A program made the translations under genes and the position numbers. This document shows, piece after piece, positions 55,875 through 59,346 of a stretch of 64,000 nt of DNA. Numbering within the stretch: position 1 is the first letter of the stretch; every line of letters begins with the position of its first letter. The notes under the pieces were generated by a model. That model was not told where the DNA came from, ran no database searches, and saw only the letters and a list, made by a program, of their open reading frames with translations. The stretch comes from an uncultured Hoeflea sp. (GTDB taxonomy: Bacteria; Pseudomonadota; Alphaproteobacteria; Rhizobiales; Rhizobiaceae): assembly GCF_947501405.1 (NCBI RefSeq), contig NZ_CANMVK010000003.1:186001-250000 (forward strand), read 5' to 3'.

Positions 55875-55926
55875 GAGCCCATCAAGCCAGTTGTGGTTTC
55901 TAACCCTCAATGAAGAGGAGTGTCCC

Positions 55927-57711
55927 ATGCCCAAAATGACCACTGAGGAAGCCTTCGTCAAAGTCCTCCAGATGCACGGAATCGAACATGCCTTCGGCAT
56001 TATCGGCTCGGCCATGATGCCGGTGTCGGATCTGTTCCCCAAGGCCGGAATCACTTTCTGGGATTGCGCCCATGAAACCAATGCCGGGCTGATGTGCGAC
56101 GGTTTCATCCGCACCACCGGCAAGATGGCCATGGCGATCGCCCAGAACGGCCCCGGCGTCACCGGCTTCGTCACTCCGGTCAAGACGGCCTACTGGAACC
56201 ACACGCCGATGCTTTTGATCACACCGCAGGCGGCCAACAAGACCATCGGCCAGGGCGGTTTTCAGGAAATGGAGCAGATGCGGCTGTTTGCCGATTGCGT
56301 GTGCTACCAGGAAGAGGTGCGCGATCCGGCACGCATTCCCGAAGTGCTCAACCGGGTGATCTTGAAAGCCTGGCGCGGCTCTGCCCCGGCGCAGATGAAC
56401 ATTCCGCGCGACATGTGGACCCAGGTGATTGATGTCGAGCTGCCGCAGATGGTGCGGTTCGAACGGCCTGCGGGCGGCGAAGAGGCGATCTCGGAGGCAG
56501 CGGCGCTATTGTCCAAGGCCAAGTTCCCGGTGATCCTGTCGGGCGCCGGCGTGGTGTTGTCGGGCGCCATCCCCGATGTGGTCGAACTCGCCGAGCGGCT
56601 CGATGCGCCGGTGTGCTCGAACTACCAGCACAATGACAGCTTCCCGGGGTCGCACCGGCTGGCAGCCGGGCCGCTGGGCTACAACGGCTCCAAGGCAGCA
56701 ATGGAGCTGATCGCCAAGGCCGATGTGGTGCTGGCGCTTGGCACCCGCCTCAATCCGTTCTCCACCCTGCCCGGCTACGGCATCGACTACTGGCCCAAGG
56801 ACGCGGAAGTGATCCAGGTCGACATCAATGCCGACCGCATCGGCCTGACCAAGAAGGTCACAGTGGGCATCGAAGGCGACGCCACCAAGGTGGCGCGGAC
56901 GATCCTTTCGCAACTGGCCGGTCACGCCGGGGATGCGGGCCGCGAAGAGCGCCGCGACCTGATTTCGCTGACCAAGTCGCGCTGGACCCAGGAATTGTCC
57001 TCGCTCGACCACGAGGACGACGATCCGGGTACCTATTGGAACGAGGAATCGCGCAAGCGCGATGCCGACCTGATGTCGCCGCGCCAGGCCTGGCGGGCAA
57101 TCCAGGCGGCATTGCCGAAAAACGCCATCATCTCATCCGACATCGGCAACAATTGCGCCATCGGCAATGCCTATCCGAGCTTTGAGGAAGGCCGGAAATA
57201 CCTCGCACCGGGACTGTTCGGTCCCTGCGGCTACGGATTCCCCTCGATTCTGGGCGCCAAGATTGGCCAGCCCGGCATCCCGGTGGTGGGTTTCTCCGGC
57301 GATGGTGCGTTCGGCATCTCGATGAACGAGATGACCGCCTGCGGCCGCGAAGACTGGCCGCCAATCACCATGGTGATTTTCCGCAACTACCAGTGGGGTG
57401 CGGAAAAGCGCAACACCACCTTGTGGTATGACAACAATTTCGTCGGCACCGAACTCGACCGCGACACTTCCTATGCCGGGGTCGCCGAGGCCTGCGGCGC
57501 CCACGGGGTGGTGGTCAAGGACCAGCACGGGCTTACCGAAGAGCTCGGCAAGGCGATCGACCGCCAGATGAAGGACGGCCAGACCACCTTCATCGAAGTG
57601 GTGCTCAATCAGGAACTGGGTGAGCCGTTCCGCCGCGATGCGATGAAAAAGCCGGTGGTGGTGGCAGGCATCAACCCTGACGACATGCGCCCGCAACAGG
57701 GCGCGCTGTAA
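55927..57711 (+). CDS. xsc: Sulfoacetaldehyde acetyltransferase
   Basis: MPKMTTEEAFVKVLQMHGIEHAFGIIGSAMMPVSDLFPKAGITFWDCAHETNAGLMCDGFIRTTGKMAMAIAQNGPGVTGFVTPVKTAYWNHTP; ThDP enzyme of Xsc type in taurine gene context. Confidence 0.95.
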   Translation: MPKMTTEEAFVKVLQMHGIEHAFGIIGSAMMPVSDLFPKAGITFWDCAHETNAGLMCDGFIRTTGKMAMAIAQNGPGVTGFVTPVKTAYWNHTPMLLITPQAANKTIGQGGFQEMEQMRLFADCVCYQEEVRDPARIPEVLNRVILKAWRGSAPAQMNIPRDMWTQVIDVELPQMVRFERPAGGEEAISEAAALLSKAKFPVILSGAGVVLSGAIPDVVELAERLDAPVCSNYQHNDSFPGSHRLAAGPLGYNGSKAAMELIAKADVVLALGTRLNPFSTLPGYGIDYWPKDAEVIQVDINADRIGLTKKVTVGIEGDATKVARTILSQLAGHAGDAGREERRDLISLTKSRWTQELSSLDHEDDDPGTYWNEESRKRDADLMSPRQAWRAIQAALPKNAIISSDIGNNCAIGNAYPSFEEGRKYLAPGLFGPCGYGFPSILGAKIGQPGIPVVGFSGDGAFGISMNEMTACGREDWPPITMVIFRNYQWGAEKRNTTLWYDNNFVGTELDRDTSYAGVAEACGAHGVVVKDQHGLTEELGKAIDRQMKDGQTTFIEVVLNQELGEPFRRDAMKKPVVVAGINPDDMRPQQGAL

Positions 57712-57743: not shown

Positions 57744-57768
57744 AAACCCCGCTTCGGCGGGGTTTTTT
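57744..57768 (+). terminator. Rho-independent terminator of xsc
   Basis: AAACCCCGC-TTCG-GCGGGGTTTTTT. Confidence 0.9.
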
Positions 57769-57772
57769 CGTC

Positions 57773-57876
57773 TAGCGCAATTCCACTTCAGCTTGAATCA
57801 GTAGCGTGTCAGAAAATGCGGGCGAGCATCGCGAGCGGCAGCAATTTCTGACCCAACTTCGAGTGGAAATGCGCTA
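57773..57876. repeat. Inverted-repeat element, MITE-like, between xsc and tauR
   Basis: TAGCGCAATTCCACTT (57773..57788) ... GAGTGGAAATGCGCTA (57861..57876), 14/16 matched termini, TA at both outer ends; nested inner IR GTCAGAAA...TTTCTGAC. Confidence 0.65.
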
Positions 57877-59346
57877 TTTGCGCGTCATCTTCGCCAGCGT
57901 CTCGGCGATGATATCGATGCCGGCGGGAATTCTGGCGCTGTCGATCGAGGAGTAGGCGATCCTGAAGTTGCGGCTGCCGTCCTCGGGGTTTTGAAAGAAG
58001 AAATGGCCGGGCTCGACCAGCACACCGCGCTGCCTCAGCGCCCTTGCGAGATCTCTTGCATCGATCCGGTCAGGGGTTTTCATCCAGAAGCTGGAGCCGC
58101 CCGAGACATCCGCGCCGGCGATCTGCAGACCGTAGCGGTCAATCGCCGTCTGCATCACCTCACGCCGGCGGCGATAGGTCTGGCCCATGCGGGCGACCAA
58201 TGCGTCGAAATGACCGAGCGAGAGAAAATTCGCCACGGTGCGCTGCAAATGACCCGGCGGATGCCGGACAATCACCGTGCGCAAAGCCCGGGCCTCGCGG
58301 ATGAAGGTTTCCGAGCCGACCATGTAGCCTAGCCGTAGCCCCGGAAACAGTGATTTGGAAAACGAGCCGACATAGATCACCCGACCCTCCTCATCGAGCG
58401 ATTTGAGCGCCGGCGCAGGCGGATTGAGAAACGACATCTCGAATTCATAGTCATCCTCGACGATCAGGAAATCCTGCCGGGAAGCCATGCCGAGCAGTTG
58501 CTGACGCCGCTCGAGCGGCATGGTGACACTGGTGGGACAATGATGGCTTGGGGTGGTGAAGACCACGTCCGTGGTCTCGGGCAGCGCATCGAGCCGCATA
58601 CCGGCGTGATCGACCGGCACATTGACCACATTGCAACGCGCCAGATTGAGGGCCACCCGCAGGCCCGGATAGCCAGGATTCTCCATCACCGCTGTGCGGC
58701 GCTGGTTGAGCAGCACCTGGGCGGCCAACCACAGCGCGTTCTGTCCACCCAACGTGATCAGGATCTGTTCGGGCTTGGCCTGTATGCCACGCCGCGGCAA
58801 CGTGTTGAGCGCAATATATTTGACCAGTTCCGGATCATCGCGCTCGTAGCTGTCGGCGGTGACGATAGGGAATTCACGCTTGCCCAGCGCCTGCAGCGCG
58901 CATTGACGCCAGTTGGAATGATCGAAAATGCGCTCGTCGGCCTGACCGTAGATGAAGGGATAGGGATAGGTGCGCCAATCCACCGGCTTTTCCACCAGCA
59001 CCTGGCCGGAATAACGCTGGCCGATGGCCCGCGACCAGTCGACAGCATCCCTGGTCATCGAAGACGGAGGATCGAAGCGCGCCCGCTGCGGCGCGGTTGG
59101 CGAAACATAATAGCCCGATCTGCCCTTGGCGATCAGGTAGTCGTCTGACACCAGTTCACTGTAGGCCAGGGTCACGGTGATGCGGCTGATACCGAGATGC
59201 GCGGCGAGCTTGCGGCTCGAGGGCAGCTTGGCGCCGGGATTGAAACGACCCGAGAGGACGCCTTCGCTGATCATCCGCTGGATTTTCTGCTGCAGCGTGC
59301 CTTCGAATTTGGGGTCGAGAAAAAACGTATCTATCGGGATCGACAT
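57874..59346 (-). CDS. tauR: MocR/GntR family regulator with aminotransferase domain (TauR-like)
   Basis: N-term wHTH (LPSSRKLAAHLGISRITVTLAYSELVSDDYLIAKGRSGYYV), C-term PLP fold (YVGSFSKSLFPGLRLGYMVG); lies between xsc and tpa. Confidence 0.88.
   Translation of the reverse strand: MSIPIDTFFLDPKFEGTLQQKIQRMISEGVLSGRFNPGAKLPSSRKLAAHLGISRITVTLAYSELVSDDYLIAKGRSGYYVSPTAPQRARFDPPSSMTRDAVDWSRAIGQRYSGQVLVEKPVDWRTYPYPFIYGQADERIFDHSNWRQCALQALGKREFPIVTADSYERDDPELVKYIALNTLPRRGIQAKPEQILITLGGQNALWLAAQVLLNQRRTAVMENPGYPGLRVALNLARCNVVNVPVDHAGMRLDALPETTDVVFTTPSHHCPTSVTMPLERRQQLLGMASRQDFLIVEDDYEFEMSFLNPPAPALKSLDEEGRVIYVGSFSKSLFPGLRLGYMVGSETFIREARALRTVIVRHPPGHLQRTVANFLSLGHFDALVARMGQTYRRRREVMQTAIDRYGLQIAGADVSGGSSFWMKTPDRIDARDLARALRQRGVLVEPGHFFFQNPEDGSRNFRIAYSSIDSARIPAGIDIIAETLAKMTRK

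Follow-up and report, generated by a model that had tools for sequence, protein, structure and literature searches.

A young MITE-like element family in a Hoeflea species with ten of its 16 copies in stop codons

The 104-bp segment at positions 57773..57876 (+ strand) of the window, the whole 64,000-nucleotide stretch of DNA analysed here, is one of 16 copies of a short repeated element in the genome of a Hoeflea species. Ten of these copies lie in phase and exactly in the stop codon of a gene, as is evident when each flank is read in frame into the element. The account which we consider very probable as a whole is that of a young, non-autonomous MITE which is moved in trans to TA dinucleotides in CTAG-like targets, and whose nearly harmless insertions in stop codons persist. 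That the segment is a MITE-like mobile element, as proposed in a preliminary description of this DNA, is well supported by the fixed ends of the 16 copies, by empty sites in congeners and by the CTAG-type targets.

The element consists of a 100-bp core enclosed by two TA dinucleotides (57773..57774 on the left and 57875..57876 on the right), and its coordinates and sequence match those of the preliminary description. The terminal inverted repeats, TAGCGCAATTCCACTT (57773..57788, + strand) and TAGCGCATTTCCACTC (57861..57876, − strand, given in the minus-strand reading), agree at 14 of 16 positions, and base shuffling of the element, repeated 20,000 times, never reached such a match. Further inside lies an inner inverted repeat with the arms GTCAGAAA (57808..57815, + strand) and TTTCTGAC (57845..57852, + strand), which are paired in the predicted fold. 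Both pairs of repeats had been noted before and could be confirmed in the sequence, the termini by the shuffle test. The predicted folds of the two strands have energies of −40.3 kcal/mol (z −3.6) and −39.0 kcal/mol (z −3.3) compared with dinucleotide shuffles, and comprise one outer stem enclosing the inner stem, not two separate hairpins. When read inward, the core begins with G at both ends. The element has no coding capacity, as direct reading of its sequence shows a stop codon in every frame; it has no T tract of its own, and a search for known RNA families yielded no score above the gathering threshold.

On its left side the element adjoins, as previously described, the intrinsic terminator of xsc (57744..57771, + strand), whose stem (57744-57765) and T tract directly precede it. 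The convergent neighbour xsc itself (55891..57711, + strand) encodes a sulfoacetaldehyde acetyltransferase (NCBIfam TIGR03457, 932 bits). On the right side lies a gene for a tauR-like regulator of the MocR/PdxR family with 490 amino acids (57874..59346, − strand). Its stop codon, TAG at 57874..57876 (− strand), is composed of T and A from the duplicated target and of the G with which the core begins, and the terminal CTA of the element can be read directly as the complement of this stop, in agreement with the preliminary description. With NF052282, the NCBIfam model of the MocR-type regulator PdxR, the product exceeds the cut-off score, and the name tauR rests on the position of the gene beside taurine genes. 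Through the insertion, the stop of tauR and the terminator of xsc came to be separated by a predicted hairpin, and according to the folding model the 3′ end of the tauR mRNA may fold through the element.

The earlier idea that the insertion defines the C-terminus of TauR did not hold. If the core and one TA are taken out, the excised site still reads TAG, and the frame is kept. The element is missing from all 11 congeners that were read at the xsc-tauR locus, where their anchors are 204-232 bp apart vs 331 bp here, and seven of the nine congener TauR sequences examined end at the same codon, the stop being TGA in all nine. The rejoined TAG and the shared position of the congener stop mean that the element replaced a tauR stop and did not create one, which rules out a creation or truncation of the C-terminus; as far as the sequences tell, the TauR protein is unchanged by the insertion. 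A clean pair of filled and empty sites was also obtained at the glycosyltransferase locus (L013), where a BLAST alignment of the joined flanks with congener G001 (83%) runs through without the element, giving a net insertion of 102 bp. With one TA left on rejoining and this net length, the suggestion that the outer TAs stem from duplication of a TA target stands.

The genome, 4.45 Mb in 11 contigs, was searched in full and yielded the 16 full-length copies, which lie on four contigs and are 95-100% identical. Among named organisms, the closest relatives obtained for its TauR are Hoeflea. Both boundaries are identical in all copies, except in L006, where the right TA reads TG. Relative to the window copy there are 19 mutations, each confined to one copy and none shared, and the divergence is 1.1%, as fits a burst that started from a single master sequence. 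The copies would accordingly represent a recent burst of a recently mobile element. Near matches to the terminal repeat (C8:22961, C1:235243, C2:21107 and C4:38797) lie in genes or are unpaired and were taken as chance. None of the 60 relatives searched contained a match to the element, and none was found in plasmid or phage collections; an exact 26-mer of the element was absent from the genome contig collection searched, and a survey of 397 further genomes of the family and 384 further ones of the class gave no paired MITE ends. Single end matches in two genomes (G381 and G647) and in 27 viral contigs had no inverted partner. Within the range of these searches, the MITE family appears to be confined to this Hoeflea species. 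With multiple copies and congeners lacking the element, a single-copy sequence conserved as an ordinary tauR 3′ UTR is excluded. Judged by sequence, all tested features of a bacterial MITE are present: the element is short and non-coding, has inverted ends, and shows dispersed copies, TA duplication and empty sites.

The base preceding the left TA is C in 13 of 16 copies, and the base following the right TA is G, likewise, in 13. Full CTAG targets account for ten copies and one-sided targets (NTAG or CTAN) for six, so that no copy lacks both bases. With regard to the less strict motif YTAR, the left base is C or T in 15 of 16 copies and the right base is G or A in 14. In element orientation, position −2 of the left flank is T in 11 of 16 copies, without a mirrored A on the right; this small asymmetry would not be expected from CTAG targeting alone.

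The ten insertions in stop codons are found in the genes for TauR (L001), an L,D-transpeptidase (L002), PhnE (L004), an Lrp-type regulator (L005), an unknown protein (L007), a RecD-like helicase (L008), an Rrf2 regulator (L009), PhaC (L011), the glycosyltransferase (L013) and GyrB (L015, C3:250571-250674). The junction codon is in all ten cases TAG, formed by the target TA and the first G of the core, and the rejoined site is in all ten cases a stop as well (TAG in nine, TAA in gyrB). Congener orthologues were compared for nine of these copies, and in each of the nine at least one orthologue has its stop at the identical codon; the genomes searched contained none that could be compared for the Lrp-type regulator. 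Rejoined and congener stops together show that the insertions went into existing stops and that the proteins were preserved and not truncated. GyrB kept its NLDI end, with its stop changed from TAA to TAG. The gyrB copy is located 6.8 kb from the tauR copy, about 0.6 kb past the right end of the window.

Of the six other copies, five (L003, L006, L010, L014 and L016) occupy intergenic DNA on the 3′ side of genes, at distances of about 18 to 137 bp from the stop. The gene before L010 is, by its sequence, putatively hisG-like. The only intragenic copy, L012 (C1:381640-381743; 1501-1604 of its locus), interrupts a reading frame of 184 codons, its junction TAG being a new stop which shortens the product to about 109 codons. 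Altogether, 15 of 16 copies are situated at or beyond gene 3′ ends, with both orientations relative to the genes being present.

In the mechanism that we propose, a DDE transposase supplied in trans would use the TA of a CTAG-like target as the insertion point for the 100-bp core, and host repair would duplicate the TA. As the core begins with G at both ends, every junction reads TA-G, and because of this junction an insertion in a stop codon would regenerate TAG in frame, leaving the protein intact, with a hairpin directly behind the stop. Being nearly harmless, insertions of this type would persist, and those that hit coding sequence or the region upstream of a gene would mostly be lost. Mobilisation in trans, the class of the transposase and selective loss as the main filter are what we infer here. 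The genome contains one DDE_3 gene (IS630-type) and three DDE_Tnp_1/DUF4096 genes (IS5-type), which were all dismissed as parent, their flanks having no repeats like the MITE ends. A resident parental IS is usual for a MITE, but not required. No transposase with matching ends (GCGCAWTTCCACT) was detected in the own genome, in the 397 family and 384 class genomes or in the viral contigs, and the parent may thus have been lost from the genome or sit in an assembly gap.

This result also bears on the proposed assignment to the IS630/Tc1-mariner type, of which the TA duplication and the CTAG preference stand, whereas a transposase to match is missing from the genomes and contigs searched and IS711 would fit also. 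By analogy, the attribution remains plausible, as IS630 prefers TA within CTAG and duplicates TA (Tenzen and Ohtsubo, 1991, as cited in PMC2170065). The element shares this target and duplication with IS630, but IS630 is autonomous and the likeness shown here is one of target and duplication, not of end sequences. A mobilising enzyme of the IS5 family (IS427/IS711-type) with YTAR targets has a fair, though less than even, chance of being the right one instead: IS711 duplicates TA at YTAR (PMC2266754), and IS5-type genes outnumber IS630-type genes in this genome by three to one, yet these resident genes are the very ones without MITE-like flanking repeats, and the reported CTAG preference of IS630 accounts for the targets equally well. 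It appears extremely unlikely that the element is a REP/REPIN-type repeat moved by a RAYT (Y1) transposase. It is indeed a short, palindromic, extragenic repeat near gene ends; however, it has one long terminal inverted repeat in place of two separate hairpins, it shows TA at both ends with a 102-bp net insertion although that class does not duplicate its target, and its copies number 16, not hundreds. Only slightly better are the prospects of a functional 3′-UTR element, i.e., a terminator or stabiliser of mRNA 3′ ends which is under selection and not a transposon copy. The strong hairpin predicted on both strands and the 15 copies at or beyond gene 3′ ends would suit such a role, but we consider it very improbable in view of congeners without the element at the same sites, the duplicated TA, copies in both orientations to genes, one copy interrupting a gene and the lack of an own T tract.

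Whether the element seeks stop codons beyond its target sequence was assessed against a background of 864 kb (about 19% of the genome), which comprised the window and the loci L210-L249. CTAG is about three-fold under-represented in this GC-rich genome (117 seen vs 354 expected in 464 kb). Of the 209 CTAG sites in the 864-kb sample, 30 coincide with stop codons and 91 fall inside genes, and the remainder comprises 28 sites no further than 100 bp 3′ of a gene and 60 at other intergenic positions; TAG stop codons thus make up about 14% of the sites, or one in seven. In a null model that treats the ten full CTAG and the six half sites separately, the ten insertions in stops have a P of about 1e-7 vs all matching targets, of 1.5e-4 vs non-coding targets only and of 0.04 vs stop and near-3′ targets only, all of these values being approximate as the genes were called with a home-made gene caller. 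Among the non-coding insertions, 14 of 15 coincide with a stop or follow one on its 3′ side by no more than 100 bp vs about half expected (P < 1e-3, likewise approximate). The weakening to 0.04 indicates that the choice of CTAG together with the loss of coding and upstream insertions explains most of the pattern, with an additional active preference for stops being possible. A machinery that recognises gene 3′ ends or termination contexts beyond CTAG, for example, through an extended TCTAG or a transcript-linked DNA state, is in our estimation unlikely. The ten exact stops among 16 copies, the T at −2, the concentration of non-coding insertions at or near 3′ ends and the residual excess of stops over near-3′ sites speak for it. 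Against it, the enrichment becomes marginal when the comparison is limited to sites at or close to the 3′ ends of genes, one copy is intragenic and five are intergenic, and selection against insertions in promoters and coding sequence would produce the same pattern. We regard as similarly doubtful the broader idea that CTAG choice and the G ends amount to a self-repairing insertion in stops, with stops and 3′ ends being actively sought as a genomic safe harbour.

Under the favoured account of nearly harmless insertions that persist, genes with essential and housekeeping roles, such as gyrB, phaC and tauR, can take up a small transposon without being broken wherever TA-G restores the stop. The same rule should apply to any element which duplicates TA, targets CTAG and has ends starting in G, which makes it worthwhile to examine stop codons as a niche of further IS630-type elements. 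In the literature searched, which covered few subscription papers, no report of systematic insertion in stop codons was found, and in the text of a 2024 review on MITEs neither 'stop codon' nor 'CTAG' occurs. The element represents a new MITE family of a known kind, settled in stop codons.

Its nearest described analogues appear to be RUP and MITEPsy1. RUP of the pneumococcus (107 bp) has a similar length, terminal inverted repeats and a TA target, and was proposed to be mobilised in trans by IS630-Spn1 (PMC2229807); unlike the Hoeflea MITE with its 16 copies and no partner found, it has 108 copies and a resident IS with matching ends, and its common site is IS elements instead of stop codons. 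MITEPsy1 of Pseudomonas syringae, a mobile element of 100 nt with 18-nt inverted repeats and CTAG or YTAA targets, differs by a four-base duplication, a link to ISPsy2 and different ends (PMC3189936). In Brucella, Bru-RS palindromes were reported as insertion sites of the IS5-family element IS711 (PMC2266754); they resemble the Hoeflea MITE as palindromic repeats of an alphaproteobacterium, but differ in serving as such sites. At the end of Coxiella enhC, QMITE2 affects the stop codon and makes the protein 33 residues longer (PMC5896051), whereas the Hoeflea MITE leaves protein length unchanged. A gene that ends at the border of a MITE is hence not necessarily truncated.
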